A DNA stretch of 64,000 nucleotides from Mucilaginibacter paludis DSM 18603 (GTDB lineage Bacteria > Bacteroidota > Bacteroidia > Sphingobacteriales > Sphingobacteriaceae): assembly GCF_000166195.2 (NCBI RefSeq), contig NZ_CM001403.1, positions 3,924,432 through 3,988,431 on the forward strand. The letters are read 5' to 3'. The position numbers and the translations under genes were made by a program. Below are positions 12,884 to 37,715 of this stretch, piece by piece. The stretch's first letter is position 1, and each line of letters starts with the position of its first letter. The notes under the pieces are model-generated. The model was not told the DNA's origin and did no database searches. It saw only the letters and a list, made by a program, of their open reading frames with translations.

Positions 12884-12913
12884 GCTAACAGAATTATTAA
12901 CCATTAAAATAAT

Positions 12914-12946
12914 GCCCTCCCTACCGTGGAGGGTTTAAGAGGGGCT
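12914..12946. repeat. G/C-rich palindromic element 1
   Basis: CCCTCCCTACCGTGGAGGG followed by TTTAAGAGGGGCT ends directly before the coupling-protein ATG. It is the first of eight related elements in this ICE, and its GAGGGG may act as a ribosome-binding site. Confidence 0.65.
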
Positions 12947-15103: not shown

Positions 15104-15132
15104 TTAACTTAATATAATATGGCGTACCTTTG
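15104..15132 (+). promoter_or_regulatory. Promoter of sigma factor gene 1
   Basis: TTAACTTAA (15104-15112) and TACCTTTG (15125-15132) stand 12 bases apart, ten bases before the start codon. The second box matches the Bacteroidota -7 consensus TAnnTTTG. The same pair with nearly the same spacing precedes the second sigma gene (27602-27629). Confidence 0.65.
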
Positions 15133-15141
15133 TTATTGGAT

Positions 15142-15738: not shown

Positions 15739-15795
15739 CATACTAATAACTATTCGGTAAAGTACTTTTTGACTTTGGCGAGGATGAGTTAGTAT

Positions 15796-16725: not shown

Positions 16726-16747
16726 GTTTAATCCTTACATAGATGAA

Positions 16748-16773
16748 TCAGCACCCGTTTTACCGGATGCTGA
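16748..16773 (+). promoter_or_regulatory. Hairpin in the leader of TonB receptor 1
   Basis: TCAGCA..CCG / CGG.TGCTGA form an interrupted stem with a short loop about 95 bases upstream of the receptor start. It has no U-tract, so it is more likely a processing or translation element than a terminator. The second module has three different hairpins at the same place. Confidence 0.4.
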
Positions 16774-16867
16774 TAAATGTGCAGCCATCATTTTAACAGA
16801 AAATTCCAGCTTCCTTGTATAGAAATGATGATCTGCTTTTGATTTACAAAGTAAACGTGCTAAAAAT

Positions 16868-19800
16868 ATGAAAAAAAAGGTAACCCAAACAGTTACGCCT
16901 TTTAAGAACACCTTAATTCTTATAACATTCGTTATTGTCAGTATTGTTAATGTTTTTTCGCCCGCCTATAGCCAGGCACAGTCGTTAGAAACGAAATACG
17001 ACATCCATTTTTCAAAAGGACAAACACTCGCAAAAGCAATTGAGGAACTACGGACGGTAACAAAGATCAAATTTTCTTATGACCCCGCAGTTACAGGAGC
17101 GTTCGAACTAAATGAACAAAGTTTCAAGCAGGAAACCTTATCAAAAATATTACTTGCTATACTAAAGGGCACTGGCTTAACTTACAAAGGTCAGGGAGCA
17201 ACGGTTGTTATATATAAGGAAGCATCCCCAAACGCATCAGCCGGCGGCGGCCCCGGCACTCTTAAAGGCCGCATTGTTGAATTTGAAACCTCGCAGCCCT
17301 TGCCGGGTGCTACAGTATATCTCGTGGAACTCCAAAAGGGAATGCAGTCCAACGCCGACGGTTATTATAAATTCAGCAACGTTCCTGCCGGGAAGTACAC
17401 GCTTAAAGTCAGCTACATCAGCTATAAAACGGAAAGTGTGCAGGTGGAAGTGAAAACGGATAAAGAGGAAAATTACGACGTGAAAATGCAGGGTTCTAAT
17501 TCCTTGCAGGAAGTTGTTGTAAGTTCAGTCCGAAAAAGCCGCCCCCCTGTTGCGCATACTTCTGAAAGACAGGTGCTGGAAGAAGTCAAACAGTCTTCTC
17601 TTGTTGTTTCAGCCATTTCATCTGAACAGATCAGTAAATCTGCCGATCGTAACGCGGCCGAGGTTGTTCAACGAATTTCGGGCGTGACGACCGTGGATGA
17701 CAAATTTATTATTGTTAGGGGATTAAATCAACGCTACAATCTTACTTATTTAAACGATAACGTAGCCCCCAGTACCGAATTATATAGCAGGGCTTTCGCG
17801 CTCGACCTGATACCAAGCCGCATTATTGACCGAATCATGGTCTATAAGTCCCCCTCACCTGAAAATCAGGGCGATGCAACGGGCGGGGTAGTTAAAATAT
17901 ACACCAAGGATGCCAAAAATGTAAAGCATTTTGACATCGAGGTACAGGGCGGCTGGCGCGAGGGCACCACCTTTAAAAATATGCTTACTTATCAGGGCGG
18001 TAAGTTTGATTTCCTGGGTTTTGATGATGGCACACGCAAATTGCCGTCTATTGTACCAGGTTATGGCAGCCTGCAAAAAACAGCTATCAGCCAGCAGCAG
18101 TACGCTACTGCTTTTTCACCTTATTTATATTTGTCGCAAATGAAAGCGGCTCCCAATACGCAACTGACGGCCAATTATTACGACAGCTTTAAGTTATTCG
18201 GGAAACCACTCAGCTCGCTTACATCTTTTGGATATAAACTCGAAAACCAGCACGCTGATATTTACCGTCAGCAAGGCATCGATGACGGCTTTGCCGGAAT
18301 GCAAGTGAATGATAACATTACTTTGGAAAACAATAACCGGCAAAACGCGCAATTGAATTTACTGCAAAACTTTACTTTTTCGTTGAGAGACAGCAGTAGT
18401 ATCCAGTTCAAAAACTTTTTGCTGCAACAGGGCCAATCTACTGCCATAGAAAAAATATTCTACAGAAGACTTTTCGCCGACGAGCGGTCAACTAATAATA
18501 AGGATATTGTATTATCCTACAATCAACGTTTTTTGTACGCAGGTAATTTAAGCGGAAGACATTATTACAAGAACGGCAGGCACCGTATTGACTGGAACGG
18601 CGGGCTTACGATAAGTAGCCAGCAGTTACCAGACCAGCGGGTGATAAGGTTGCAAGGCCCTGTTGGTAACTTTGCAACAGGCGATCCGGAACTTTACTGG
18701 TATGCAAGGTCACGGACAGGAGATGCGGAAAGTGTAGATAACACCAACCGGATAGCACAGGGTATGATATCGCGTACGTGGACGAACAACAAGGAAAGTG
18801 TCTACAACGGATCCATTGATTATTTATTTCAATATAAACCGTGGTTATCTTTTAAAGCGGGCACCTATCAGCAATGGAAAGAGCGCCATGTTTTCCGGAG
18901 AGTTTATACGGTACAAGAGGGTGATTATACGGGTAATTTTAGCGATTACTATACCGCACCAGGCGGATACGGCACTTATGTAGATCCTGCACTTTATACT
19001 TTCAGACAGCAGGATCTAAGCAGGATCTGGTCGCCCCAGTATCTGCGTGATGACAAGAGCGGATTATTAGTGGTGGATAAAACACAAGGCAGCGATGCTT
19101 ATGTGGCAACAGAGCAAACGAACAGTGGCTACGCCGCTTTTAGTTTTACACCAGCCCATCGGAAATATGAAATATACGGCGGTGTACGTGTAGAATACGA
19201 CAGACAACGCGTTGGGGCAGCGATACAACCAACCGATATAAGCACCGGGATCAATCAGCCGGTATTGGTAGACATCAAAAAGTTGGAAGTATTACCGTCA
19301 CTGAATATAAGCTATCGTCCGGGTAATAGCTGGGTAGTTAGGGCCGCCGTGGGCAAAACACTTAACCGCCCTGAGTTTACAGAAATATCCCCGTTTAGCG
19401 ATCTTGACCTGGAAAACAATACTGCATTAAGGGGTAATCCATACTTACGGCCAGCATCGGCATGGAACTACGATCTGCGGACAGAATTTTATCCACGCGC
19501 GAACCGTCAGGGTGAAACGATCAGTGTTGGCGCTTTTTATAAGGAAATCAATAATCCCATCGAACGTATCAACACCAGTAACCGCATTCTTAACACGCCC
19601 GCAAGTATTTCTTTCCAGAACGCCTCAAAGGCTACGATAAAGGGTGTAGAGATCGAGATCAGGAAAAATCTTGACTTCGTCCCTATCGGCTTTTTTAAAC
19701 GTTTATCTGTTATCGCCAATTTCTCGTTTATCAAAAGCCAGGCTGTGAAAGACAGCGCTTCAATAGCCGCGGAACAGGGAGACAAGCCGGATACCCGCGT

Positions 19801-20251
19801 AGCTGACTACACAGTTAAACGGCCACTACAGGGCCAGGCTCCTTATATCATTAATGCAGGCCTGTATTATGATAACGCAGCGTCCGGAACTAAAATTTCC
19901 GCCATTTATAATGTGGTAGGAACCCGTATTTATGCTGCCGGACAGGGATATGTTCCTAATTCGTTTATCAATGGCTCTGAATACCGGGGAAGTTTATTGG
20001 AACTCCCCCGCCATCTGGTAGATGTGTCGGTTTCGCAGCGTGTAGTAAAAAGTGTTCAGGCCAAGCTGGCAGTACAAAATCTATTGAACCAGTCCATTAT
20101 GATGGCCGAAGATTACAACTATACTTATAAATACGAACCGGAAACCAAGGTTACAGGAACTGATGGAAAGACCGTTACGGAAGGCGACAACATTTCATCC
20201 CGGTATAAGCCCGGTAGGTATTTTATTTTATCGGTTTCTTATTCATTCTAA
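16868..20251 (+). CDS. TonB-dependent transducing receptor, module copy 1
   Basis: This outer-membrane receptor of 1,127 residues imports or senses an unknown ligand. It has a signal peptide (about 1-37), then an STN domain (about 40-118, KGQTLAKAIEELRTVT ... SYDP) that passes the signal to FecR. A carboxypeptidase-regulatory-like beta domain (about 130-210, GTLKGRIVEFETSQPLPGATV) and a plug (about 225-345, QRISGVTTVDDKFIIVRGLN) follow, then a barrel ending in aromatic SVSYSF. No SusD-like partner follows; lipoprotein genes do. Compared with copy 2 the plug is highly conserved and the barrel loops vary. Confidence 0.93.
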   Translation: MKKKVTQTVTPFKNTLILITFVIVSIVNVFSPAYSQAQSLETKYDIHFSKGQTLAKAIEELRTVTKIKFSYDPAVTGAFELNEQSFKQETLSKILLAILKGTGLTYKGQGATVVIYKEASPNASAGGGPGTLKGRIVEFETSQPLPGATVYLVELQKGMQSNADGYYKFSNVPAGKYTLKVSYISYKTESVQVEVKTDKEENYDVKMQGSNSLQEVVVSSVRKSRPPVAHTSERQVLEEVKQSSLVVSAISSEQISKSADRNAAEVVQRISGVTTVDDKFIIVRGLNQRYNLTYLNDNVAPSTELYSRAFALDLIPSRIIDRIMVYKSPSPENQGDATGGVVKIYTKDAKNVKHFDIEVQGGWREGTTFKNMLTYQGGKFDFLGFDDGTRKLPSIVPGYGSLQKTAISQQQYATAFSPYLYLSQMKAAPNTQLTANYYDSFKLFGKPLSSLTSFGYKLENQHADIYRQQGIDDGFAGMQVNDNITLENNNRQNAQLNLLQNFTFSLRDSSSIQFKNFLLQQGQSTAIEKIFYRRLFADERSTNNKDIVLSYNQRFLYAGNLSGRHYYKNGRHRIDWNGGLTISSQQLPDQRVIRLQGPVGNFATGDPELYWYARSRTGDAESVDNTNRIAQGMISRTWTNNKESVYNGSIDYLFQYKPWLSFKAGTYQQWKERHVFRRVYTVQEGDYTGNFSDYYTAPGGYGTYVDPALYTFRQQDLSRIWSPQYLRDDKSGLLVVDKTQGSDAYVATEQTNSGYAAFSFTPAHRKYEIYGGVRVEYDRQRVGAAIQPTDISTGINQPVLVDIKKLEVLPSLNISYRPGNSWVVRAAVGKTLNRPEFTEISPFSDLDLENNTALRGNPYLRPASAWNYDLRTEFYPRANRQGETISVGAFYKEINNPIERINTSNRILNTPASISFQNASKATIKGVEIEIRKNLDFVPIGFFKRLSVIANFSFIKSQAVKDSASIAAEQGDKPDTRVADYTVKRPLQGQAPYIINAGLYYDNAASGTKISAIYNVVGTRIYAAGQGYVPNSFINGSEYRGSLLELPRHLVDVSVSQRVVKSVQAKLAVQNLLNQSIMMAEDYNYTYKYEPETKVTGTDGKTVTEGDNISSRYKPGRYFILSVSYSF

Positions 20252-20262
20252 TATCAAAAGCA

Positions 20263-21822
20263 ATGAAAAAATTTAGAAAATATAGTGTGCTTGTTTTTAC
20301 AGGAACAATGTTATTACTAACAGCGGCGTGTAAAAAATCAGAAAATTTTTACCAAAGCCTGGTAGATTTGCCTGAGATCAGGAAGATCTATGATAATGCC
20401 TATGAGGTAGGAAGCCAGATGATCATTACTGGTCGCCTCAACCCTGACAACGGATTGAAAATAGAGATCGGAGGTATAACAGCAAAGATCACCGGTTTAA
20501 CCAAAGTGGTGGGAGGCGGTACCCAATACGCACCCTATTATGTTGACCAGGCAACATTAACTATTACCAAAGAAATGGGCATCGGCCCCAACCGCCCCGT
20601 TAAGATCACGTCCGCGGGTAATACCATTGACGGGCCGCCCATCGAAATTTTTTCATCTGGTGATTTGGCCGATTCCTTGCAACTGGTTAGTTACAGCACT
20701 TTGCCGACAGGTAGCCTACCATTATATGGAATCAATGGTAAAGGGAGTGTTTACCTCTACGACGGGCCAACTAACAGCATCAAAAAAATAGCAAAGGGCG
20801 GTACTACAGTTCAGGTGGTCACACCAGCCTCCCTGAAAGACACGTATGGAACATTTGCCATTACAGCTTTTAACGCCGGTGGCGTTGATCCCCAGGAAGA
20901 AAACCTTTATTTCTCGGCTGTTACAACAGATGCATCAGCAGATAATGCTGCAAACCTGATCTACCGCTTTTGCAGATACAACATCAAAACGAGTCAATTA
21001 ACCACCCTTAATCGCACACTATTTTTAAAATCGGCCACAAAGCCGCTTATTCCAACTGCCGGATTACTGGAGGGCAATATCTCACAGGTAAACCTCATGG
21101 AACTGACCGGTGTTTACCCCGATAGCAAGGGCAATCTCTACCTTCGGCTGGGAAATATCATTGTCTCTGGAAGTGTTAAAATTGAAAATTCTTACGCCAC
21201 AGCCAGGTTAACAACTAACGGGGAGTTAAAATATTTGTACAAGAGTACAGTACCGCCGGGTATTCGTGCCTCCCAGCAACGGGAATACACCGCATCAATT
21301 ACTTTGGTGCCGGGCGTTGGCATGAGCTATAAACAAGGCCCGATTATGCCGGATGAGAACAGGATGTATAGCCTGGCACTCGGTGACGGGCAAATGAATG
21401 GTTTACCTACCAGGATACTTCAATACGACCTGTTAAATCAGACCACGCTTTACAACTACACAAAACCCAATATCAATTTCACTAAACCTTATATTTCAGG
21501 GTCATTTAATATTCTTACCGCAGTAAGTACCGGCGGATTCTATAATACGCCTACGCTTTTTGGTTTAATGCCCATGCCCGGCGCAAAACTGATGATCTTA
21601 TACTACCAGGAACGGACGCTGCAATTTGATGATAAACGCTTCCCCGCATTCGGTACAATGAATTTTAACGAGCAACGGGGTGACCGCTATGCGCCGGGAG
21701 CTGTAAAAACAAATAATTACAAAATGAATGAAGACGATGTCATGCTCAATTACGACGAAGAGGGTATGATTTATACCACAGCTAACAGTAAAACTTTGAT
21801 CTTAAAAACACAAAAGCAATGA
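20263..21822 (+). CDS. Surface lipoprotein with TIG-like N-terminal domain, copy 1
   Basis: The lipoprotein signal has its cysteine at about residue 23 (LLLTAACKKSENF). Residues 45-125 (MIITGRLNPDNGLKIEIGG ... VKITSAGNTIDGPPIEI) resemble an IPT/TIG or DUF5008-like domain. The remaining 390 residues look like a repeated beta structure (YDGPTNSIKKI; YPDSKGNLYLRLGN), perhaps a propeller. It starts 11 bases after the receptor, and its last four bases overlap the next gene (ATGA). Likely a ligand-binding partner of the receptor. The family name is uncertain. Confidence 0.78.
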   Translation: MKKFRKYSVLVFTGTMLLLTAACKKSENFYQSLVDLPEIRKIYDNAYEVGSQMIITGRLNPDNGLKIEIGGITAKITGLTKVVGGGTQYAPYYVDQATLTITKEMGIGPNRPVKITSAGNTIDGPPIEIFSSGDLADSLQLVSYSTLPTGSLPLYGINGKGSVYLYDGPTNSIKKIAKGGTTVQVVTPASLKDTYGTFAITAFNAGGVDPQEENLYFSAVTTDASADNAANLIYRFCRYNIKTSQLTTLNRTLFLKSATKPLIPTAGLLEGNISQVNLMELTGVYPDSKGNLYLRLGNIIVSGSVKIENSYATARLTTNGELKYLYKSTVPPGIRASQQREYTASITLVPGVGMSYKQGPIMPDENRMYSLALGDGQMNGLPTRILQYDLLNQTTLYNYTKPNINFTKPYISGSFNILTAVSTGGFYNTPTLFGLMPMPGAKLMILYYQERTLQFDDKRFPAFGTMNFNEQRGDRYAPGAVKTNNYKMNEDDVMLNYDEEGMIYTTANSKTLILKTQKQ

Positions 21823-22739
21823 AATTAAAAAATGTCAAAAAGATAAACCGTTTATTCCCGGTCTTGATCGTTATGCTGTTGTGTTCATGTAAAAAACAGG
21901 TCAAAGAGTATTTACCAGGGCCGGAAGCTGCGGGTATCAATTTCTACAATGCTTCAGAAGTGATGAATTCGGCGGCTGATCTGAGAAAAGATAACTACGT
22001 ATTTATAAATGATTCTGTAGCTAACGGAGTGTTTAAGCAATTTCCTAAGTATGCTGATGTATACACTCCATTAAGCGATCTGAGACAGTATCCGTATAAT
22101 CGAACAGGTACCATCTTTAATCAATCCGGCGTCATATCCGACCGCTACCAATATGTATACTACATGCCGATAGCTTTAGGAACTTACAAGTTTATCTACA
22201 GCGGGCCGAATAAGATATTTCTAAAAGATATGAGCGTTACACTAAACGAAAGAGACGAACTGAACGCGTTGTATTTGGTTGAAAGTCCGGAAGCAGATAA
22301 TGCCTACCGCGTAGTCAATGTTCCGGAAGCCTACAAAGGCACACCCGGTAAGGTCAGGATACGCTTTGTACACTTGGGTACCGACAGTAAGGAGTTCGTC
22401 ATTAAACGAGCCGATGCGAATGGACAGGATATAGCTGCCGATCTGCCTAAGAATTTACCTTTCGGTGGTTTCTCCGACTACGTGGAACTGGATACTGCCG
22501 GAACATCCGCTACTTCTAAAAATTTTGTATTTAAAATTTATGATGTCGCTGATCCGTCAAAGCAAGTTTTGTCAACGGCCGTTCCGGCGGAACCGAACGG
22601 TTCTTTCGTAGTGCTTATTCAGGGTTTCCGGCAGACAACTACAAGAAGAATACCAACCGGCTACGCAAATGGCAATACAACATATCAAACCGTAAATATT
22701 TCACCCAATTTTAGGATTAATTTACGCCGGACCTACTGA
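21819..22739 (+). CDS. DUF4397-like lipoprotein, module copy 1
   Basis: The lipoprotein signal reads FPVLIVMLLCSCKKQ, cysteine near residue 25. The middle (GKVRIRFVHLGTDSKEFVI, about 188-206) matches the DUF4397 pattern of Ig-like beta domains seen in Bacteroidota surface proteins. It overlaps the preceding gene by ATGA, indicating translational coupling. The 306-residue frame is intact here, while the copy-2 counterpart is broken by a 10-base deletion. It is probably exposed at the cell surface with the receptor. Confidence 0.8.
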   Translation: MKLKNVKKINRLFPVLIVMLLCSCKKQVKEYLPGPEAAGINFYNASEVMNSAADLRKDNYVFINDSVANGVFKQFPKYADVYTPLSDLRQYPYNRTGTIFNQSGVISDRYQYVYYMPIALGTYKFIYSGPNKIFLKDMSVTLNERDELNALYLVESPEADNAYRVVNVPEAYKGTPGKVRIRFVHLGTDSKEFVIKRADANGQDIAADLPKNLPFGGFSDYVELDTAGTSATSKNFVFKIYDVADPSKQVLSTAVPAEPNGSFVVLIQGFRQTTTRRIPTGYANGNTTYQTVNISPNFRINLRRTY

Positions 22740-22849
22740 TAGGAAAAAAATAGCAAAAAACTAATAATCAACACTTTAATTTAATTAATACTTCGGTAAA
22801 GGCCACGCCTTTGTCTAAAATTCTTGACAACAAAATCCAAAAAAGAAAA

Positions 22850-24214
22850 ATGAAAACAAAAACTATGTTAAAAAACACGGGGCTGGTATTGTTACTGGCG
22901 CTGGGAATGGCAAGCTGTAAAAAAGACAAGAAAACAGAAACTCCCACTCCGGAGCCGGTACCGGTAGTGAGCATCTCGATCGACGACTTGAAGAAATTAA
23001 GTACCGGCGCAACAGTTTCTGTACCCGACGGGAAAAAGATCAGCGGTATCGTTATCTCAGATGCAACTGCCAAAAATATTGATGCGAAAACAGTAGTGAT
23101 CCAGGAAGCTGCGGACAAATCGGGTATCATTATCAACTTTGACGCAGCACAAACTTTTGCAGTTGGCGATGAAGTAGAGATTGATATTTCAAAACAAACC
23201 CTTGCCCAAATTAACGGTGAAATTGTCTTGGATAAGATCCCCTTAACTAAAGCAAAAAAATTAAACAGCGGAAAAACGATTGCTGCCAGAGCGACGACAG
23301 CCGATGAGGTTATTAAAAACGCGGCATCATGGGATGGTACCTTAATTTCGTTATCAAGCGGTTTACTGACCGGCGGAAATGGAAAATACGCGGGTACGCT
23401 TGAATTCACGGATACTAAAGGTAATGTAAGTTCTCTTATAACGTCCGGCGCTACTTTTGAAAATAAAACATATATCTCCGAATTAAAATCATTTACAGGT
23501 ATTGTACGGGTTAACGGGAACGCGATCAGGGTGGATATGCGCGGTGAAGCTGATGCGGTTAAGGCAGATGGCGCTATCGTATACACCTATACAGAAGATT
23601 TTCAAAGCGGTGTAAATACTACGGATTATAAAGCTGCTTCAGGTCAAATTTGGCCGTTAACCACGGGTAACTGGATGAATGCCAATATTTATTACGATTT
23701 CTCGACCCCAAAAACAGGTGATGGAGGATTTCTGACAGCCGGCAGAAAATATATATACCTGTATGGTGATGTAGCAAAATTACATAGGATCATAACCAAA
23801 TTTGGCAACAAGCTATCAGGCGTTAAAAAAATCACCATTAAAATTGCTGGTTCTCTGGATGTCAGCAATAACAATGGCACAACCTTCGACCCGACTACCA
23901 ATTCATACATTGTAAATGTTTTAGGTCTAAAAAGAGAAGCAAATCCTATTTCAAGCTCTGCCTCGGGCGCTTTAATAGATGATGTTACTTTTAATGACCA
24001 GGGAAGCTTCCATACGATTACGATCAAGATTCCAACTGCCGCAGACCTGCTTTCCAAAGGCTGGACTCAGGATCAAATTGATTATTTTATGCAAAATCCG
24101 AACTTCATTTTCAGGGTTTCAACTACAATATCAACAAATATTGGGGGAATGTTTCCGGCTGTCATTGAAAAAATCGATTTCGGTTTCGATGTAAAACCAA
24201 CCTGGGCACCATAA
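22850..24214 (+). CDS. DUF5689-domain lipoprotein, module copy 1
   Basis: The start is the ATG at 22850, followed by a lipoprotein signal (GLVLLLALGMASCKKDKK). Residues 40-210 (ISIDDLKKLSTGATVSVPDGKKISGIVISD ... FAVGDEVEIDI) match the DUF5689 OB-like domain. The rest is a beta-rich C-terminal domain (TEDFQSG onward) that differs from copy 2. A GCCTTTGTC stretch at about 22807-22815, shared with copy 2, may be a promoter box, so this gene could begin a second transcript. Substrate unknown. Confidence 0.83.
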   Translation: MKTKTMLKNTGLVLLLALGMASCKKDKKTETPTPEPVPVVSISIDDLKKLSTGATVSVPDGKKISGIVISDATAKNIDAKTVVIQEAADKSGIIINFDAAQTFAVGDEVEIDISKQTLAQINGEIVLDKIPLTKAKKLNSGKTIAARATTADEVIKNAASWDGTLISLSSGLLTGGNGKYAGTLEFTDTKGNVSSLITSGATFENKTYISELKSFTGIVRVNGNAIRVDMRGEADAVKADGAIVYTYTEDFQSGVNTTDYKAASGQIWPLTTGNWMNANIYYDFSTPKTGDGGFLTAGRKYIYLYGDVAKLHRIITKFGNKLSGVKKITIKIAGSLDVSNNNGTTFDPTTNSYIVNVLGLKREANPISSSASGALIDDVTFNDQGSFHTITIKIPTAADLLSKGWTQDQIDYFMQNPNFIFRVSTTISTNIGGMFPAVIEKIDFGFDVKPTWAP

Positions 24215-24220
24215 TTAAAC

Positions 24221-24534
24221 ATGCAGGGCATCTCAAAATCGAGGCATGTGCATTTGATGGATGCCCTGCTTCAGTTGGAATACCTTTTAGGTAAGGAATG
24301 CGGATGTTTGCAACAGGCAGGTGAATACAGGGCAGAACTGGCAACCATGCATAGTGATTATGAGCGTTTGCTGGGCGAACTGGCGAAAGTCATCACGGAT
24401 TATAGCGTATTGTATGATGAGGTGAAGATCCGGTTCCTGGGCAAAAAGTTGAAAGAACTGAAAAGGAAATTTCGGTGGAGATGCCGGGTTTCCCGGTGCT
24501 GGTGCAAAACATTAGGATAGCTTACGGTACTTAG
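24221..24534 (+). pseudogene. Small helical protein, copy 1, frameshifted at 3' end
   Basis: The protein begins MQGISKSRHVHLMDALLQLE and is a coiled-coil-like helix. Compared with copy 2 (36836-37150) one A is missing in an A-run near 24461-24466. The frame therefore ends in KRKFRWRCRVSRCWCKTLG at 24520 instead of the native EISVEMPGFPVLVQNIR..AYGT, which would stop at 24534. The first 60 bases equal copy 2 and contain a perfect inverted repeat, GCAGGGCATC / GATGCCCTGC (24223-24232, 24260-24269). Function unknown; the gene may still give an altered protein. Confidence 0.65.
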
Positions 24535-24606
24535 CCGATCCTCCTAATATATTGATTGTAATCGAGGGCTGTGCAGCAACGCCTGCCCTTTTTAAAACTC
24601 CTTTTG

Positions 24607-24858
24607 ATGCGAACTTCATATTTGGCCATCTCAATTTTACTGGTACTGGATATAGCGGTTTTGTTAATCGCCAGATGGTTTGACAGGCGGTATTATTTGC
24701 CATTTTTAGAAACGGTCATGAAACAAAAGAAAGAGCCGGTTTGCAACCCAAACCTGATACCCTTGGGTATCATGGCCGCTGGCGGTGGGCTATTGATCTA
24801 TGCCCTGATCGGCTTTGCCTGGGTATGTTTAACGCATAACATAGATAAACCCAATTAA
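24607..24858 (+). CDS. Small membrane protein with two helices, copy 1
   Basis: The protein of about 83 residues starts MRTSYLAISILLVLDIAVLLIARWFDRRYY. One helix lies at residues 5-22 and a second near the C terminus (GIMAAGGGLLIYALIGFAWVCL), with a basic loop between (VMKQKKEP). I prefer ATG 24607 to the GTG at 24571, because the latter region is a GGGC/GCCC hairpin followed by T-rich bases. Copy 2 at 37214-37456 has the same layout. Not recognised. Confidence 0.65.
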   Translation: MRTSYLAISILLVLDIAVLLIARWFDRRYYLPFLETVMKQKKEPVCNPNLIPLGIMAAGGGLLIYALIGFAWVCLTHNIDKPN

Positions 24859-25004: not shown

Positions 25005-25095
25005 CCATTTAAAAACAACAATTATAAATGATAGCCTATGATGTAATTTTACAATTTAAACTAAGAAATTAAAATATTCTGCGTCTACACGCTTC

Positions 25096-25246
25096 CTGTC
25101 TGAGAAAACGACTAAATTTTTGAATAAAAAACAGGAGCAAGTTTACGCCTGCGAAAGTGCGGGCTGGCTTGTTCTGTTTTTTGGGTATTTAGTCGTACCT
25201 CTCAGACGGTTCAGGTCATTCCCGCGCTTTCGCATTTAACTGACCT
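25096..25246 (+). ncRNA. Structured RNA element with 14-bp pseudoknot, copy 1
   Basis: Nested stems: CTGTCTGAGA/TCTCAGACGG (25096-25105, 25200-25209), CGACTAAAT/ATTTAGTCG (25109-25117, 25187-25195), ACAGGAGCAAG/CTTGTTCTGT with one bulge (25131-25141, 25168-25177), and an apical GCCTGC/GCGGGC (25147-25152, 25159-25164). A second hairpin AGGTCA/TGACCT (25213-25218, 25241-25246) has a loop CCCGCGCTTTCGCA (25221-25234). That loop can pair 14 bases with 25150-25163 of the first. The CTTGTTCTGT arm is followed by T6, so the inner stem can act as a terminator. The segment is identical in copy 2. It ends 22 bases before the GNAT start: a cis-regulator or a separate small RNA. Confidence 0.72.
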
Positions 25247-25268
25247 AAACCTTTTATTTGAGAAGCCT

Positions 25269-25847
25269 ATGATATGTGCAAAAAGAACCGATAAACCGCT
25301 GGTAACCGACCTGTTATCCGCCGCCTTTAATGACAATTTAAGCGTTAACTATATCGTCCGGCAGGACGATAAACGCAAACAACGTATCCGTGCGCTGATG
25401 GATTATTCTTTTGAGGTCTGCTATCGCTTTGGTAAGGTCTGGCTGTCCGAAGATCGAAAAGCCTGCGCACTGGTGCTATATCCTCATCAAAGGAAAACTG
25501 ATTTGGAAGCGATTTTGCTGGACTTCAAGCTGATCTTTAAAGCCATCGGTCTAGGCGGCATCAAAAAGGCGCTCGACCGTGAAACAATGATCAAGGCCAA
25601 ACAGCCAAAAGAACCAATGGCCTATTTATGGTTTATCGGCGTCAGTCCGCTTTATCAGCACCAGGGCAGCGGCGGCAGGCTCTTAAAGCAGATCATAGCC
25701 GATGCGGAGCAGCAGGATTTGCCCGTTTACTTTGAAACATCGACCGAACGTAACCTGCCCTGGTACGAACAGCACGGCTTTACCGAATATGAAAAGTTCG
25801 ATTTAAGCTATACGCTGTATTTTCTAAAACATGAAACTGTTAAGTAA
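25269..25847 (+). CDS. GNAT-family acetyltransferase, module copy 1
   Basis: The 192-residue protein has a GNAT fold. The acetyl-CoA-binding motif A is LWFIGVSPLYQHQGSGGRLLKQII (about 117-140), and the C terminus has ETSTERNLPWYEQHGFTEYEKF (motif B). The substrate is unknown; the N-terminal half is specific to this small group. The LuxR gene follows after 11 bases and has a clear AAGGAGG ribosome site, unusual in Bacteroidota. The gene is led by the structured RNA, which may control it. Confidence 0.86.
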   Translation: MICAKRTDKPLVTDLLSAAFNDNLSVNYIVRQDDKRKQRIRALMDYSFEVCYRFGKVWLSEDRKACALVLYPHQRKTDLEAILLDFKLIFKAIGLGGIKKALDRETMIKAKQPKEPMAYLWFIGVSPLYQHQGSGGRLLKQIIADAEQQDLPVYFETSTERNLPWYEQHGFTEYEKFDLSYTLYFLKHETVK

Positions 25848-25858: not shown

Positions 25859-26776
25859 ATGTTAGTGTTCGGAACACAGGTGCATATTGTCACCTTTTTA
25901 TTTATTATAGCCGAGGGGCTCATGTTTTTCATCGAGGCGGTTATATACAGTATTTGGCCTGATAAACGGCGAGGCTGGTACCTGGTGCTGTTAACCTTGT
26001 TACTGCTTTATAATGTTACGGGAGGACTTTTTCCCGATCCCAAAATCCCCATCTCTATTTCCTTGCAGGAAATGATCGCCTACGGTACCGGCTTTTTAAT
26101 GGCATACTATTTTCCCTTTTACTTTTACAAAGCCTTTGACCTTAAATCGCTGCGCTGGCACGCCTTGTTCGGGGTGCCTTTATTCCTGATGCTGCCCTAC
26201 CTGCTGTTTTTCGTGATCATGTACGCGATCAACGAGGATTTGGAGAAAGATATTCGCTATGGTGTAATTGCGCCTTTTATTTATTCATTAGTTTTGCTTT
26301 GGGTGATGTTACGCGCCATCCGTAAACATTACAGGGAAAACCGAGACCGAAGTTACTATATCGAAGAACTGGCGGTCTACTGTGCGGTATCGCCCTGGGC
26401 GGCCATGACCGTGCTTTCATGGTTCCAGGTTTCCCAACTAACCGAGGTGCTCTGTACAAATACTGGCTTTTTATTTATTTCTGCCGTGTTTATCCGCAGG
26501 TCGATCTTGCTGCACCGCCTGGAGAAACGCCTTTATTTGGGTCAGGCTCCTTTTCAGAACGATCCGGTAAAAGTGGAAGCAAACTGCAAACGCCACAACC
26601 TGACCCGAAAGGAAACCGAAATTTCCGGCATGGTCTGCCAGGGCATGATCTACCGAGAGATTGCGGACAAGCTGTTCATATCACTGAGAACCGTAGATAA
26701 ACATATTGAGAATATATTCGATAAGGTGGGCGTATCGAACAGGGTTGAACTGGCCCGAAAGTTGAATGGTCTTTAA
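25859..26776 (+). CDS. Membrane-bound LuxR-type transcription regulator, copy 1
   Basis: The protein has 305 residues: six to seven membrane helices in residues 1-215 (VTFLFIIAEGLMFFIEAVIY; WYLVLLTLLLLYNV; GVPLFLMLPYLLFFVIMYAI; APFIYSLVLLWVMLRAI; others). A LuxR-family helix-turn-helix follows at about 240-303 (LTRKETEISGMVCQGMIYREIADKLFISLRTVDKHIENIFDKVGV). It would sense a membrane or small-molecule signal and bind DNA, presumably near its own module. The stretch 26192-26340 is identical to copy 2, unlike the 5' end of the gene, which suggests gene conversion. Confidence 0.88.
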   Translation: MLVFGTQVHIVTFLFIIAEGLMFFIEAVIYSIWPDKRRGWYLVLLTLLLLYNVTGGLFPDPKIPISISLQEMIAYGTGFLMAYYFPFYFYKAFDLKSLRWHALFGVPLFLMLPYLLFFVIMYAINEDLEKDIRYGVIAPFIYSLVLLWVMLRAIRKHYRENRDRSYYIEELAVYCAVSPWAAMTVLSWFQVSQLTEVLCTNTGFLFISAVFIRRSILLHRLEKRLYLGQAPFQNDPVKVEANCKRHNLTRKETEISGMVCQGMIYREIADKLFISLRTVDKHIENIFDKVGVSNRVELARKLNGL

Positions 26777-27601: not shown

Positions 27602-27629
27602 TTAACTTAATGTTCTTTGCCTACCTTTG
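27602..27629 (+). promoter_or_regulatory. Promoter of sigma factor gene 2
   Basis: TTAACTTAA (27602-27610) and TACCTTTG (27622-27629) repeat the promoter layout of the first module with one base less between the boxes, five bases before the start. The shared unusual upstream box suggests common or autogenous control of both sigma genes. Confidence 0.65.
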
Positions 27630-27634
27630 AGCGG

Positions 27635-28243
27635 ATGCAGGTAAAGGAATTACATACGGATGAGAGCCTCATAGCAAGATTGCAAAATGATGATCCCGCT
27701 GTATTCCCGCTTTTATTCACCCTCTATTGGAAAGATTTATACAGGGCTGCCTATAACCGTCTGAGTGATCAATCCGAAGCGGAAGATATGGTTCAGGATA
27801 TTTTCACCGATATATGGGAAAGAAGATACAGCCTGGAGATCAACACCTCTTTAAAAAACTACCTGCATAGTTCGCTCAAATTCCGGATGATCCGGATGCT
27901 TAGTCGCGCCAACCTACACAAAAAAGCATTGGAGCATTTATTGTACCGGATGTCGGAAATGGAAACGACCATACTGGATGTATTGGCAACATCAGATGTG
28001 GAACGTACCTTATCACAAGCGATCAGTTCGTTTCCGGAAAATATGCGCAAGGTATTTACGCTCCGCAGTGAAGATTACACCATCAAAGAAATTGCCGAAG
28101 CTTTGGGACTGGCTGAACAGACCGTAAAAAATAATGTGACGGAATCTTTACGGCGGCTAAAAATGGTACTGCACAAGGAGCATCCCGATGTGACCAATTC
28201 TTTTTATACCCTGTTGGTTGTCGTCCTATTAAAATCCAAGTAA
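27635..28243 (+). CDS. ECF sigma factor, module copy 2
   Basis: The protein has 202 residues from ATG 27635 (MQVKELHTDESL); an upstream TTG at 27617 would place the promoter inside the gene. Region 2 is LYWKDLYRAAYNRLSDQSEAEDMVQDIFTDIWERR. Region 4 is MRKVFTLRSEDYTIKEIAEALGLAEQTVKNNV. It is clearly related to the copy-1 sigma but strongly diverged, so the two probably recognise separate promoters. FecR follows after 114 bases. Confidence 0.92.
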   Translation: MQVKELHTDESLIARLQNDDPAVFPLLFTLYWKDLYRAAYNRLSDQSEAEDMVQDIFTDIWERRYSLEINTSLKNYLHSSLKFRMIRMLSRANLHKKALEHLLYRMSEMETTILDVLATSDVERTLSQAISSFPENMRKVFTLRSEDYTIKEIAEALGLAEQTVKNNVTESLRRLKMVLHKEHPDVTNSFYTLLVVVLLKSK

Positions 28244-28357
28244 TTCCCACGATTGAAATTCATTCGAGCTGTTAACATAAAGTTAACGGTTTAATAACGG
28301 TTTATTGAGGTACCATTTGGCCTGTTATGTCACTTAACCTGTATAAACGCAGAAAAA

Positions 28358-29305
28358 GTGAAACAAAGAATTTTAAAAAGACTGTTGAAGCGCTACCATA
28401 ACGGGACCGCAAACCAGGCGGAACGTTTTATCGTTGACCGCTGGTATGATTCTTTTGCCGATCATGATCAGATACCCGGCTTGGAGGATGACCTGGCAGC
28501 CGGTGAAACAGCACAACGGATCTTTGGCAAGATAAAGTTTCAGAGGCTAACTAAGGCATGGTATTATCGCCCTGGCTATCAGATCGCCGGTTGTTTGGCA
28601 CTCCTATCTGCATCATTGCTTGTACTCTACACCCGCCACGAGGGTAATTCACCTTTGCAACATGCTGTCGTTTACCATACCCTTAAAGGCCAGACCCAAA
28701 AGATCCTGCTGAAAGACAGCACAGCGGTTTGGCTGAATGCCAACTCAACGATGGAGGTATTACCAGAATATGCTAAAGAAACCCGTCAGATAAAACTAAC
28801 CGGGGAAGCTTACTTTGATGTAAAACACGACCAGAGGCATCCATTCATCATAGCCACGCAAGGTATCAAAACACAGGTATTGGGTACATCCTTTAATATT
28901 TCTGCCTACCCGGTTTTAAATCAGCTGGAAGTAACAGTTAGAACAGGAAAAGTAAGCGTGAGCAATCCGCAAGCCTTATTGGCAACCCTGCTGCCGGGCA
29001 AATCGCTGCACTATAATAGGACGAACCACCAAGTAACGGTAACCGACGAAAATCCTGAACTGATGATCGCATGGCGTGATGGCCGGACATTGGTTAACGA
29101 TGCTTCGTTTCGTGAATTGGCAGAGATCTTCAGTAATACCTTAAATGTGAAACTGGTAAGTAAGGATAAAGAAATTAACAACTTACAGTTCCGCTTATCA
29201 CTGGATAGAAAATTATCAGTGGACGACAATCTTAAATTAATCGCAGGTATACACCAATTAAAGTATAGGAGAATTGAAAGTAATGTAATAGAGTTATACA
29301 AATAA
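28358..29305 (+). CDS. FecR-type anti-sigma factor, module copy 2
   Basis: This 315-residue inner-membrane anti-sigma begins with GTG (KQRILKRLLKRYHNGTANQAER), a start supported by family N termini. One helix lies at about 74-92 (YQIAGCLALLSASLLVLYT). The FecR domain (KILLKDSTAVWLNANSTMEVLPEY ... GEAYFDVKHDQRHPFII ... VLGTSFNIS) and the C-terminal DUF4974 region follow. It should partner the copy-2 sigma factor and receptor. Confidence 0.92.
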   Translation: MKQRILKRLLKRYHNGTANQAERFIVDRWYDSFADHDQIPGLEDDLAAGETAQRIFGKIKFQRLTKAWYYRPGYQIAGCLALLSASLLVLYTRHEGNSPLQHAVVYHTLKGQTQKILLKDSTAVWLNANSTMEVLPEYAKETRQIKLTGEAYFDVKHDQRHPFIIATQGIKTQVLGTSFNISAYPVLNQLEVTVRTGKVSVSNPQALLATLLPGKSLHYNRTNHQVTVTDENPELMIAWRDGRTLVNDASFRELAEIFSNTLNVKLVSKDKEINNLQFRLSLDRKLSVDDNLKLIAGIHQLKYRRIESNVIELYK

Positions 29306-29315
29306 CAGGTGTGAT

Positions 29316-29387
29316 CGGGCAAAGGCCCGGAAAAAAACAAGACCTGCTTACGACAGGTCTTGCAAATTGCCTGCTTACGACAGGCAA
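29316..29387 (+). promoter_or_regulatory. Three hairpins in the leader of TonB receptor 2
   Basis: CGGGC/GCCCG (about 29316-29330) is followed by two stems with the same loop CTTACGA: CAAGACCTG/CAGGTCTTG (29338-29362) and TTGCCTG/CAGGCAA (29367-29387). The core CCTGCTTACGACAGG is thus repeated 29 bases apart. This may be a stability or regulator-binding element. The receptor starts 38 bases later. Confidence 0.6.
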
Positions 29388-29425
29388 CAAATAAATAATG
29401 GACAGACCACTAAGTTTTCAAAAAT

Positions 29426-32400
29426 ATGGAAAAATACAGAACGTGTGTACTTACGTTCCCTCTTAATTTTATTTTAAAAAAGACAGGATTTATTCTCTTA
29501 CTACTTTTAGGTATCAGCAGCTCGCCTGCTAAAGCAGCCAATGATGATAAAAAAATAACGATCACATTTAATGCAGGAGAAAAACTTGATCATGCATTAA
29601 AAAGACTGGAGGAAGCTTCCGGTGTAACAATGGCGTATGATCCCAAAGCGACCTCGGTTATTACCGTTAAGGCTAAAACATTTACAAATACCGATTTAAC
29701 GGAAATTCTAAAATTCTTATTGACAAATGCTGGTTTTTCATTTAAAAATGAGAGCGGAAGCATACTGATCTATAAAAGCCCAAACGCATCAGCCGGCGGC
29801 GGCCCCGGCACCCTTAAAGGTCGCGTTGTAGAATTTGAAACCTCGCAGCCCCTGCCTGGGGCGTCAGTATACATTGTTGAACTACAAAAAGGTATGCAGT
29901 CCAATATCGATGGATATTATAGCTTCACCAATATTCCATCTGGTAAATATACGGTTCAGGTATCATATGTCAGCTTCGCAACAGAAAAAGTAATTGTAGA
30001 AGTCAAGCCAGGCAAAGAAGCGACCTATGATATTAAATTGCAGGGATCTAACTCATTAAAAGAGGTAGTGATCAGCAGTGTCAAAAAAAGCCGTGCCCCC
30101 GTTTCACATACCTCTGAACGCCAGGTATTGGAAGAAGTCAAGCAGGCATCAATGGTGGTATCGGCCATTTCCTCTGAACAGATCAGCAAATCTGCCGACA
30201 GAAATGCCGCTGAAGTTATGCAACGCGTATCGGGGGTAACTACTGTAGATGACAAATTTGTCATTGTTCGCGGATTGAATCAAAGGTATAATTTAACATA
30301 TCTTAATGATAACGTAGCGCCAAGTACCGAGTTATATAGCCGGGCTTTCGCGCTCGACCTGATACCAAGCAGGATCATTGATAAAATATTGGTCTTCAAA
30401 TCTCCATCACCCGAAAACCAGGGCGATGCCACAGGCGGCGTGGTCAAGATCTACACCAAGGATGCAAAAAATTTAAAGCATTTCGACATCGAAGTGCAGA
30501 CTGGCTTGCGAGAGGGTACAACCTTTAAAAATGTGCTTACCTATCAGGGCGGAAAATTTGATTTTTTAGGTTTTGACGACGGAACGCGCAAACTACCAAC
30601 TGTAGTACCAGCCTACGGTAGTTTACAAAAAGCTACCATCTCCCAGCAGCAATATGCTAAAGGCTTTTCCCCTTATTTGTATTTGGGGCAAAAACAGGCA
30701 TTACCTACCATTCAGATAACAACAAATTACTATGATAGCTACAAGTTGTTTGGGAAACCGTTGTCGATGCTAACTTCTTTCAGTTACAAACACGAAGATC
30801 AGCAAGCCAATATTTATCGCCAGCAAGGTATAGATGATGCCTTTAAAAGTACCATACCGAATGACGCGATAACCTTCGAAAATAATAACCGGGAGAGCGC
30901 TCAATTAAACCTGCTGCAAAACTTCACTTACAGGCTGCGGGATAGCAGTAACTTACAGTTTAAAAACTTCTTGTTACAACAAGGTGTGTCAACAACCATA
31001 GAAAAAGTATTTCACCGCCGGGCGATGGCTGATCAACGGGCTTTCGATAATAAAGATATCGTTCTTTCCTACAGCCAGCGTTTTTTATATGCAGGTAATG
31101 TCGGCGGAACACACTATTACGGCGGCGGTAAACATCGTTTTGACTGGAATGGTGGCTTAACCTACAGCAGCCAGGAACTTCCGGATCAGCGGGTAATCCG
31201 GTTGCAGGCTCCGCTAACTGCTTTTACAACCGGCGACCCCAACCTTTACTGGTTCGCAAGGGGCAGAAAGGGTGATCCGGAAGATTCCGAAAATCAAAGC
31301 AGGATCAACCAGGGTATGATTTCCCGCACCTGGACGCGCAATAACGAAGGGATTTACAATGCTTCACTGGATTATACTTACAAGTTTAAGCCCTGGCTGT
31401 TCCTTAAAGCTGGAACGTTTCAGCAATGGAAGGAGCGAAAAGTTTTCAGAAGGGTTTATACCGTACACGAAGGTGACTTTACAGGCACTTACAGCGATTA
31501 CATAACGGCACCGGGGGGATATGGCACATACGTTGACCCCGCCCTTACAGCGTTCAAGCAACAAGATCTCAGCAGACTCTGGTCTGCCAATTATCTGCGG
31601 GATGACAAGACCGGCTTATTGGTTGTCGATAATACACAAGGTAGCGACGCTTACACGGCTACTGAACAGAACAACAGCGGTTACGCGCTTATGAGCTTTA
31701 CACCTGCTCACCGGAAATTTGAAGTTTACGGCGGCGTTAGAATTGAATATGATCGTCAGCGGGTAGGCGCGGCGGTTCAACCTACCGATCAGGGTGGAAT
31801 CAATCGTCCAGTGCTGGTCAATATTTCCAAACTGGATATATTGCCATCCGTTAATGCAAGCTATCGTCCGCATGATAATTGGGTGCTCAGGGCCGCTTAC
31901 GGCAAAACGGTTAACCGTCCCGAGTTCACGGAAATCTCTCCGTTTAATGATTACGACCTGGAAAACAATACCAGAAGACAAGGTAATCCCTATTTGCGCC
32001 CGGCAACCGCATCTAATTACGATCTTAGGCTGGAGTTTTATCCCCGTAAGAACCAATATGGGGAAACCATCTCAATTGGCGCTTTTTACAAGACCCTGCA
32101 AAATCCGATTGAACGGATCAACGCCAGTGATCGTATTTTAAATAACCCAGCATTAATTACTTTTCAGAACGCCGCAAGGGCTTCCATTAAAGGGGTAGAA
32201 TTTGAATTGCGAAAAAATCTGGACTTCATTCCGGGTAACTTGTTCAAGCGTTTATCGGTTATCGGCAACCTTACGCTGATCAGAAGCGAAGCCATTAAAG
32301 ACAGCGCCGACGTAGCCAATGAGCAAAAAGATCAACCTGATAAGCGGATAGGTAATTTTATCATCAAACGCCCGCTACAGGGCCAGGCACCCTATATTGT

Positions 32401-32797
32401 AAACGTCGGCTTATACTATGATAACGCATCGACAGGCACGAAAATATCAGGCATTTACAATATCGTGGGCACCCGCATCTACGCGGCGGGAAGAGGGTTT
32501 GCTGCTGACCCAACTTTAAATGGATCTCAATTCCGGGGAAGCCTGATGGAACTGCCGCGGCATGTGGTTGATATTTCGGTAACACAACGTATCGTGAAAA
32601 CCATCCAGGCCAGATTTTCGGTTCAAAACCTATTGAATAAGCCAATCGAAATGGCGGAAGATTACAATTTTACTTCGAAATATGAACCTGTAAAAACCGT
32701 GGTAACTGATGGCGTTACCAAAGTTGAAGGAGACAATATCGCATCAAGATACAATCCGGGCAGGCATTATGTATTGTCATTTTCTTATTCATTTTAA
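29426..32797 (+). CDS. TonB-dependent transducing receptor, module copy 2
   Basis: The receptor has 1,123 residues with the same order as copy 1: signal peptide (to about residue 36, SSPAKAAND), STN domain (about 42-120), carboxypeptidase-regulatory-like domain (from GTLKGRVVEFETSQPLPGAS), plug (QRVSGVTTVDDKFVIVRGLNQRYN) and barrel ending LSFSYSF. The STN and signal regions differ most from copy 1, as expected if each signals to its own FecR. The region from NASAGGGPGTLKGR through the plug is nearly identical. Confidence 0.93.
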   Translation: MEKYRTCVLTFPLNFILKKTGFILLLLLGISSSPAKAANDDKKITITFNAGEKLDHALKRLEEASGVTMAYDPKATSVITVKAKTFTNTDLTEILKFLLTNAGFSFKNESGSILIYKSPNASAGGGPGTLKGRVVEFETSQPLPGASVYIVELQKGMQSNIDGYYSFTNIPSGKYTVQVSYVSFATEKVIVEVKPGKEATYDIKLQGSNSLKEVVISSVKKSRAPVSHTSERQVLEEVKQASMVVSAISSEQISKSADRNAAEVMQRVSGVTTVDDKFVIVRGLNQRYNLTYLNDNVAPSTELYSRAFALDLIPSRIIDKILVFKSPSPENQGDATGGVVKIYTKDAKNLKHFDIEVQTGLREGTTFKNVLTYQGGKFDFLGFDDGTRKLPTVVPAYGSLQKATISQQQYAKGFSPYLYLGQKQALPTIQITTNYYDSYKLFGKPLSMLTSFSYKHEDQQANIYRQQGIDDAFKSTIPNDAITFENNNRESAQLNLLQNFTYRLRDSSNLQFKNFLLQQGVSTTIEKVFHRRAMADQRAFDNKDIVLSYSQRFLYAGNVGGTHYYGGGKHRFDWNGGLTYSSQELPDQRVIRLQAPLTAFTTGDPNLYWFARGRKGDPEDSENQSRINQGMISRTWTRNNEGIYNASLDYTYKFKPWLFLKAGTFQQWKERKVFRRVYTVHEGDFTGTYSDYITAPGGYGTYVDPALTAFKQQDLSRLWSANYLRDDKTGLLVVDNTQGSDAYTATEQNNSGYALMSFTPAHRKFEVYGGVRIEYDRQRVGAAVQPTDQGGINRPVLVNISKLDILPSVNASYRPHDNWVLRAAYGKTVNRPEFTEISPFNDYDLENNTRRQGNPYLRPATASNYDLRLEFYPRKNQYGETISIGAFYKTLQNPIERINASDRILNNPALITFQNAARASIKGVEFELRKNLDFIPGNLFKRLSVIGNLTLIRSEAIKDSADVANEQKDQPDKRIGNFIIKRPLQGQAPYIVNVGLYYDNASTGTKISGIYNIVGTRIYAAGRGFAADPTLNGSQFRGSLMELPRHVVDISVTQRIVKTIQARFSVQNLLNKPIEMAEDYNFTSKYEPVKTVVTDGVTKVEGDNIASRYNPGRHYVLSFSYSF

Positions 32798-32808
32798 TAA
32801 AGCGCACA

Positions 32809-34389
32809 ATGATATATAAATTCAAAAAATCAAGTCAGATCGTACTTATCCTGATGCTTATATCCGCTTTAGCTGCATGTAAGAAATCACAGGATTTTTA
32901 TCAAAAGTTGGTAGACATGCCAGAAGTAGTGAACAACTATAACAAGGCATACGAGGTAGACAGTACAATGGTTATTACCGGAAGACTAAATCCGGAGAAA
33001 GGCCTTAAAATTGAGATCGGCGGTATTGAGGCAAAAATTGTAAGCCTGAAAAAAGTAACCGTTGGGGGAACGCAGTCGGACCCGTATGAAGGCGACCAGG
33101 CGACGATCACCATTACCAGTGCGATGGGAATTGGCGAAAATAGGCCGGTTAAGGTTACTTCTGCCGGTAATACAATTGATTGCCCGTCTATCGAGATCTT
33201 GTCTCCGGGAGTTATTGCTGCTCAATTAAAGCTGCAAAGCCACTTTGTTCCGCAAGCTAATGATGTTGTTTTGTATTGCCTGAACGGCAAAGGGAGCGTT
33301 TATGTTTATTCGAACGCCAGAGGACAGATCGTTAAAATCGATAAATCTGCAAATGTTCAAACGGTAGCCAATACGGCGAACTTTAGTGACGCAGACGGCC
33401 CGTTCGCCATCGCCGGTTTTAATTCGGGTGGAACTGATCCCCAGGAATCCAGTTTGTATTTCTCGGCCCTGACCACGGACGGTTCGGCCAACAGTAGCGC
33501 CAGCTATATCTATCGGCTCTGTAAAATTGACTTAAAAACCAAAACCATCACGACGTTAAATAAAACGCTTTATCCAAAATCAATGGCATTACCGGTTATT
33601 CCCACTGCTCTGCCGTTAGAGGGAACAATAAACCATGTTAACCTGATGGACGTTTCAGGAATTTATCCCGACAGTAAGGGCAATGTCTACCTAAGGCTTG
33701 GTAAAACTATCATCAGTGGAGGTTACGCATTTGCCAATAACTACGCGACTGCATTGTTAAATAGTAACGGTTCAATAAAGTATCTGTTTAAAACAACCCT
33801 TGCGCCTAATTATGATTCTAACCTGCAAACTGAATATAACGCCTCAATCCTTAAAATTCCTGGTACTGGCATTATTTATAATCAGGGTAATATCATGCCG
33901 GACGAACAGCGGATGTATTGTTACGCACTTGCTCCTTCGGGCAATATAAATGCCTTAACCGATATTTTACAGTACGACCTGGAGAACAATGTGACCTTAT
34001 ATAAATACTCAAAATTAAACATGCCGCCTAATAATGATAAACCCTATATAGCTGGGGTGTTCAATACACTAACGGCCGTGTATAATGCCGGTTCATTCGA
34101 TACCCCCGACCTTTTTGGTTTTATGCCTTTACCGGGAGGGCGCATACTAATCTACTACTATCAACAAAGAGCGGCTTCATTTTCCGATCATCGTTTTCCA
34201 GCATTTGGCACAATGGATTTTATAAAAAAACGTGGCGACCGTTATGCGCCAGGTGCCGTTGAAACAGGTAGTTACAAAATGTTCAGCGGTGATTCGGGTC
34301 AGGATCAGTTGCTGAATTATGATGAAGAAGGTATGATTTACAGCACCGCCAACAATAAAACCGTAATCGTAAAAACTGTAGAAAAATGA
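32809..34389 (+). CDS. Surface lipoprotein with TIG-like N-terminal domain, copy 2
   Basis: The 526-residue homologue of 20263-21822 has its lipoprotein cysteine in LISALAACKKSQDF. The N-terminal domain (MVITGRLNPEKGLKIEIGG) and the motif NLMDVSGIYPDSKGNVYLRLGK are kept. It starts 11 bases after the receptor and overlaps the next gene by ATGA, as in copy 1. This tight order suggests the receptor and lipoproteins form one surface complex. Confidence 0.78.
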   Translation: MIYKFKKSSQIVLILMLISALAACKKSQDFYQKLVDMPEVVNNYNKAYEVDSTMVITGRLNPEKGLKIEIGGIEAKIVSLKKVTVGGTQSDPYEGDQATITITSAMGIGENRPVKVTSAGNTIDCPSIEILSPGVIAAQLKLQSHFVPQANDVVLYCLNGKGSVYVYSNARGQIVKIDKSANVQTVANTANFSDADGPFAIAGFNSGGTDPQESSLYFSALTTDGSANSSASYIYRLCKIDLKTKTITTLNKTLYPKSMALPVIPTALPLEGTINHVNLMDVSGIYPDSKGNVYLRLGKTIISGGYAFANNYATALLNSNGSIKYLFKTTLAPNYDSNLQTEYNASILKIPGTGIIYNQGNIMPDEQRMYCYALAPSGNINALTDILQYDLENNVTLYKYSKLNMPPNNDKPYIAGVFNTLTAVYNAGSFDTPDLFGFMPLPGGRILIYYYQQRAASFSDHRFPAFGTMDFIKKRGDRYAPGAVETGSYKMFSGDSGQDQLLNYDEEGMIYSTANNKTVIVKTVEK

Positions 34390-35293: not shown

Positions 35294-35437
35294 GCCTATG
35301 GATCAATAAAAAAGTAGAAATAAGACATAAATAAAGATGCCGGAGAGGTATGCTTAGGCTATGCCTTTGTCAAAAAAAAGAATAACAATTAAAAACACAT
35401 AAAAACCGGCCGGTAAAAGGGCCATAAAACAAAAACA

Positions 35438-36823: not shown

Positions 36824-36835
36824 CAACAGGCATTT

Positions 36836-37150: not shown

Positions 37151-37213
37151 CCGAAACTTGAATATATAATTGTGATCAAGGGCAGCGCAGCAATGCCTGC
37201 CCTTTTTAAAAGT

Positions 37214-37617: not shown

Positions 37618-37715
37618 CACTATTAAAAACACAGCAATTATTAATTAAATGCCTATGATGCAATTTTACAATTTAAACTATAACAAAATATACACATTCT
37701 GCGTCTACACGCTTC

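Follow-up and report, generated by a model that had tools for sequence, protein, structure and literature searches.

An apparently undescribed structured RNA family of Bacteroidota, with a putative four-strand exchange, found before accessory genes and a conjugative transfer region

The window analysed here, a stretch of 64,000 nucleotides from the genome of Mucilaginibacter paludis DSM 18603, carries the same short sequence twice, and the question it raises is whether that sequence is a structured RNA and, if so, what such an RNA would do in front of the genes that follow it. Read on the plus strand, like every part of the element described below, the first copy holds a series of nested helices: P1 (GTCTGAG, 25098-25104, with CTCAGAC, 25201-25207), P2 (25108-25117 with 25187-25196), P3 (25126-25134 with 25174-25182), P3b (25136-25141 with 25168-25173) and P4 (25147-25152 with 25159-25164), the apical block 25126-25152 comprising the 5' strands of P3 and P3b, the apical loop and the 5' strand of P4. 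The original prediction of nested helices followed by a tail hairpin that forms a pseudoknot with the apex is borne out, as coordinates and complementarity can be read directly: 14 bases of the apex (TGCGAAAGTGCGGG, 25150-25163) are complementary to the tail (CCCGCGCTTTCGCA, 25221-25234), with one G.U pair, in a pseudoknot designated PK1. As RNA, 25098-25251 reaches a minimum free energy of -70.9 kcal/mol, compared with -44.2 +/- 4.1 for 200 dinucleotide shuffles (z -6.4), none of which (0/200) folds as stably.

The second copy (37701-37871, plus strand, with P1 at 37718) is identical to the first, as had been noticed, and the identity extends over a block of 219 bp (25076-25294 = 37696-37914) that includes the start of the GNAT gene, into which it reaches by 26 nt. 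The flanking genes had been said to differ between the copies, which is not simply so: they are paralogues, the GNAT proteins after copies 1 and 2 being 80% identical, and together with the 219 identical bp this indicates a block duplication in which the core is identical. Elsewhere in the same genome lies a third copy (160 bp, 98%), likewise before a GNAT gene, and a blastn search of the element against 100 relatives returns just the 3 copies of the M. paludis genome.

The surroundings of the two copies form a CTnDOT-like conjugative element with an integrase, a relaxase, a coupling protein, two cargo blocks, RNA copy 2, RteC and tra genes. Its tyrosine integrase (8832), relaxase (11621) and coupling protein (12926) are encoded at 8832-14989 on the plus strand. 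Copy 1 precedes a GNAT acetyltransferase gene (25269-25847, plus strand), whose start codon lies 62 nt after P1, and a gene for a LuxR-type regulator with a hydrophobic N-terminal part (25859-26776, plus strand; PF00196); the second cargo block follows, without tra genes. Copy 2 stands at the head of a GNAT-LuxR-RteC-tra region on the plus strand, made up of GNAT, LuxR and RteC genes (37889-40560; RteC itself 39655-40560, PF09357, E 1.3e-66) and of transfer genes (41445-50387), among them DUF4134 (41445), TraG (42186), TraJ (47146) and TraM (49284). The location before a GNAT-LuxR pair was therefore correctly described, but GNAT is just one of many partners of this RNA, and copy 2 adds RteC and tra genes. 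The cargo blocks (15130-24858 and 27617-37456) are tandem paralogues, each followed by RNA-GNAT-LuxR; a scan of the second reveals a sigma factor, FecR and a TonB receptor, and the first is presumably like it, judging by matching ORF sizes. Downstream of the tra genes, at 55012-59768, are a GmrSD-type restriction gene and a SIR2-domain gene, likely to be defence cargo.

That the flagged sequence is a structured RNA is beyond reasonable doubt, and comparison among relatives makes it near certain that it represents a structured RNA family in Bacteroidota. A first clue to covariation came from genome G118, in which P1 is altered at three successive pairs on both strands with pairing kept. A covariance model built from 3 sequences (R1) matches 38/149 Mucilaginibacter genomes at E <= 1. 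A second model built from 40 sequences (R2) has matches in 202/351 family genomes and 95/345 class genomes sampled (E <= 0.1), and in 28/247 phylum genomes (E <= 0.001), 6 of the 28 being outside the class; the three samples overlap and the counts rest on rough model E-values. Genome G000 carries 8 copies, and at one locus two copies lie ~0.9 kb apart on the minus strand (L222:991-1141 and 2025-2173), each preceding a response-regulator-like gene.

The absence of compensatory base changes had been proposed as grounds for giving up the RNA interpretation, and such changes are abundant. Across 101 distinct aligned sequences, 952 cells are changed on both sides and still paired, compared with 251 in shuffles; 95.5% of cells are paired (66.4% shuffled), and the covariation score is 0.746, against at most 0.103 with partners slid. 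Changes on both sides occur in 35/36 pairs, including all pairs of P1 (7/7) and P2 (10/10), and all five helices covary. The alignment was fitted to the covariance model and hence leans towards the structure, a minor concern beside so large an effect. Over all 36 pairs there are 246 G.U cells and 46 A.C cells, an imbalance that identifies the plus strand as the folding strand. Unpaired columns conserved at >= 90% number 6 in the P1/P2 and P2/P3 junctions and 2 in the tail. Alignment A10 leaves out near-duplicates and loci L070, L073, L097, L102, L116, L155, L193, L194, L209, L210, L216, L217, L219 and L223; antisense overlaps (2/93 rows) were removed before counting, and two MAFFT alignments (A2 and A3), in which L014 is misaligned by eye, were not used for models.

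The prediction that the fold corresponds to no recognised riboswitch holds as well. There is no Rfam 15 match in the window at curated score, and none overlapping the element in 24 further loci (10 at E <= 5 and 14 at E <= 1). Sub-threshold matches to BTnc231 near L014 and L173 lie outside the element and are attributed to chance.

The complementarity within the element exceeds the 14 bases first seen. Four strands can be delimited: a leader (strand 1, 25081-25099) that includes a small hairpin, P0 (GCGT/ACGC, 25081-25084/25089-25092), and the stretch CTTCCTGT, which is complementary to strand 2; the 5' side of the apical hairpin (strand 2, ~25133-25152); its 3' side (strand 3, 25155-25182), made up of the 3' strands of P4, P3b and P3 with T6 at its end; and a tail (strand 4, 25208-25251), which contains the PK1 tail strand and, in the GNAT subgroup, a local stem, P5 (25208-25218/25241-25251). 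Strand 2 has its complement in the leader, which lies 5' of P1, and strand 3 in the tail, which lies 3' of it, so the four can pair either as 2:3 or as 1:2 plus 3:4. As far as can be predicted from sequence, the complementarities 1:2, 3:4 and 2:3 are mutually exclusive alternative helices, and their arrangement is the layout expected of an attenuator or riboswitch.

These pairings are specific to the native partners. Model R2 keeps PK1 and P5 unpaired, which makes a test of PK1 independent of the pairing in the model, and no swap of partners between members (0/2000) pairs PK1 apex and tail as well as the native combination. Mean duplex energies are more favourable for native than for partner-swapped strands in 1:2 (-13.9 vs -10.0), 3:4 (-24.4 vs -17.6) and 2:3 (-18.7 vs -14.5), with 0/5000 permutations as good in each case. 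The wrong-strand controls behave otherwise, 4996/5000 swaps being as good for 1:3 and 995/5000 for 2:4; pairing 1:4 is weak (11/5000). When the strands are split, the distal (inner, kissing) and proximal (outer) parts are each natively complementary (0/5000 each), the P1-adjacent parts of leader and tail matching the P3/P3b strands with z of -12.4 and -8.7, and the native signal persists on 66 representatives below 70% identity. Three of the four split-strand controls are null and one, distal tail against the apex 5' strand, is marginal (323/5000 with 101 sequences, 206/5000 with 66). Tested earlier without gaps, leader against apex alone fell short of significance (139/2000), which a narrower test with gaps reaches. 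In nested folding the full minimum free energy averages -64.5, against -50.0 for 1:2 plus 3:4, which puts the scaffold ~14 kcal/mol ahead, and the core from P1 to P1' alone (-50.3) is level with the alternative. Reaching a second state would consequently depend on a trigger, on the kinetics of co-transcriptional folding, or on P1/P2 persisting as pseudoknots.

The element also has a fixed placement before genes. In 81/96 members P1 is followed, 10-200 nt on (median 76 nt), by the start of an ORF on the same strand, and in the other 15/96 there is none in that range; the corresponding controls give 36/96 (mirrored) and 17/96 (upstream). ORFs were defined here by ATG and >= 50 codons rather than taken from annotation, and 5/101 members with short flanks were left out. 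Upstream, the motif TAnnTTTG, the Bacteroidota -7 motif, occurs near -79 in 46/99 members (2/101 with short upstream flanks left out); base shuffles give 3.5, and an upstream control region gives 2. Neither window copy has the strict motif; copy 1 alone carries a looser version, and there at -54 rather than ~-79.

The partner genes are diverse and share no common pathway. Of the 81 downstream proteins, 74 were scanned, and among the matches listed (the best 25 of 36 families, in a tally that gives no count of proteins without a match) there are 6 LuxR-type HTH and 6 sigma region 4 matches, perhaps overlapping sets, 5 RteC, 2 response regulators and 2 of the N6/N4 methylase family, other listed families being matched once each. 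PADLOC finds chiefly DNA methyltransferases among the downstream proteins, 4 of which match its CARF model, and several others, inspected by eye, have N-termini like those of secreted proteins or lipoproteins. Within Mucilaginibacter, an RteC-type gene lies in the flanks of 14/20 sixteen-kilobase-scale loci and a TraG-sized gene in those of 8/20, these cluster names being inferred from the Pfam matches of the window and the downstream-protein scan. In 4/20 of these larger loci the RteC-type gene is divergent, and the RNA stands instead before a small ORF. Small ORFs of ~75-111 codons follow the RNA at L131, L133, L140, L142, L152, L157 and L161-L163, and their products may resemble the RpoA C-terminal domain.

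The element does not track the GNAT family either, as blastn over 80 loci places it in 5 distinct positions, plus L014 by eye, and R2 matches occur in 3/37 GNAT loci. The genomes of GNAT loci L006-L013, L015-L033, L071 and L074-L080 were covered by the genus-wide R1 search and were left out of the locus-level one. In a TetR-linked subgroup (L085, L088, L091, L104, L115), GGAGG, which is unusual for Bacteroidota, and an ORF of 8-10 codons are found just before the RNA. By eye, this short upstream ORF is confined to that subgroup and is not general in the family, and a leader peptide with translation-coupled attenuation was for that reason set aside as a rule.

Of the original interpretation, the structured RNA, the real pseudoknot and the lack of a known family stand, whereas the terminator finds no support across the family. 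The T6 after the inner stem is present in the window, but T6 is found at that place in 3/101 aligned members and T5 in 6/101; since it is not conserved, the reading of inner stem plus T6 as an intrinsic terminator was abandoned. U-runs are instead common in the tail: T5 or longer occurs there in 33/41 members outside the window's family set (4.5 expected; L199, among these 41, belongs to the window's family) and in 17/58 inside it (3.7 expected), L053 and L043 (2/101) being in neither set. Both window copies are without a tail U-run.

Our best reading, which we hold to be probable though by no means assured, is that the element is a cis-acting 5' leader RNA with alternative strand pairing that behaves as a two-state switch; its transcription and switching, the direction of control and the trigger are what we infer. 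Such an RNA would start upstream of P1 and fold into the nested scaffold of P1, P2, P3 and P4, with conserved unpaired bases beside P2. Of the apical hairpin, the leader (1) would mimic the 3' strand and the tail (4) the 5' strand, and 1:2 plus 3:4 could replace all or part of hairpin 2:3 in the manner of an attenuator. In many relatives, 3:4 and the U-run might then act as a terminator whenever 3:4 wins; where the U-run is lacking, as it is in both window copies, strand exchange would more likely alter access to the downstream start codon. The balance might be tipped by something that binds the conserved P1-P2-P3 junctions, whether ligand or protein, or by the timing of transcription and translation. 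In the CTnDOT-like element, control of the GNAT-LuxR-RteC-tra region would fall to copy 2. More tentatively, and with the chances somewhat against it, the family may be a new and very common orphan riboswitch-like class of Bacteroidota, in which four-strand exchange round an aptamer-like P1-P2 core lets one shared signal control accessory genes, transfer operons included.

The same strands could also serve a structure that does not switch on a large scale. P1-P3 would then stay formed, with distal leader and distal tail docked side by side on an opened apex as a static double pseudoknot, a compact fold for binding a protein or ligand. The native pairing of the distal parts and of PK1 is in keeping with this, and the linkers of leader and tail, by an estimate from helix lengths, seem able to span the distance to the apex; yet the proximal complementarity of leader and tail to the P3/P3b strands (z -12.4, -8.7) would be needless in such a fold and would clash with P3b, and we regard it as rather unlikely. 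The steady distance to a same-strand ORF start (81/96, above both controls) argues against a small RNA that acts in trans from a promoter of its own, with a terminator made of 3:4 plus the U-run and incidental neighbours, even though the promoter-like motif carried by roughly half the members, the U-run after the tail and the great diversity of downstream genes would all suit one; we consider it distinctly improbable.

Two further explanations place the function in DNA. During conjugation the structure might act in single strands, as an origin-like hairpin or in the way that Frpo of plasmid F serves as a promoter in ssDNA, and in the genus the element does often lie in or near conjugative-element genes, with one strand that folds strongly. 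Outside the genus, however, members often precede accessory genes with no conjugation genes in the short flanks seen, and about half have an ordinary promoter motif upstream, which makes this a very remote prospect. Still less credible to us is that the element is a mobile repeat or a site of DNA recombination: multiple copies in a genome (8 in G000) and the identical core of duplicated blocks could suggest one, but copies diverge with compensatory changes and the near-identical ones looked at have homologous flanks. One 191-nt member also has 0 matches by blastn in plasmid and phage collections, which says little given how variable the sequence is. A pattern scan of IMG/VR yielded 4 contigs, of which model R2 matches 0/4.

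If a leader RNA of this kind does gate both conjugative transfer and diverse accessory genes, whatever triggers it would be a control signal that Bacteroidota share, and the transfer of these elements would be open to study through one RNA. In so well-sequenced a phylum, a large class of structured RNA that Rfam lacks would in itself be a notable find.

Among known systems, trp-type leader attenuators choose between the alternative pairings 1:2/3:4 and 2:3, and the present RNA resembles them in its four strands, its predicted exclusive pairings, its placement before an ORF and, in many relatives, the U-run after 3:4. It differs in that strands 2 and 3 lie inside a conserved P1-P2 scaffold, and in having neither a general leader peptide nor a common metabolic gene. 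RteR of CTnDOT, a short trans-acting small RNA, is likened here by description and not by sequence: it is an RNA linked to the transfer of an RteC-bearing Bacteroides conjugative transposon, and its shortness and action in trans set it apart.

The family appears to be large and undescribed in Bacteroidota, the portions of the literature consulted (including PMC2864571, PMC8040213, PMC11109978, PMC7266159 and PMC10994844) holding nothing recognisable as this RNA. Among the HMP2 human-microbiome candidate RNAs are Bacteroidetes ones absent from Rfam 14.3 (PMC8040213); because the comparison was made on their description in the text, overlap with the present RNA is possible, and its novelty is probable, not proven. 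The STAXI motif likewise has pseudoknots near DNA-handling and integration genes (PMC2864571), but its pseudoknot is repeated two or three times, and the present RNA has no Rfam match in the window or the 24 further loci scanned. With the orphan riboswitches, as partly set out in PMC7266159, the family has in common conserved junction bases, flanks that resemble expression platforms and diverse associated genes, and it is distinguished from them by its occurrence in Bacteroidota and its ties to conjugative elements and accessory genes.
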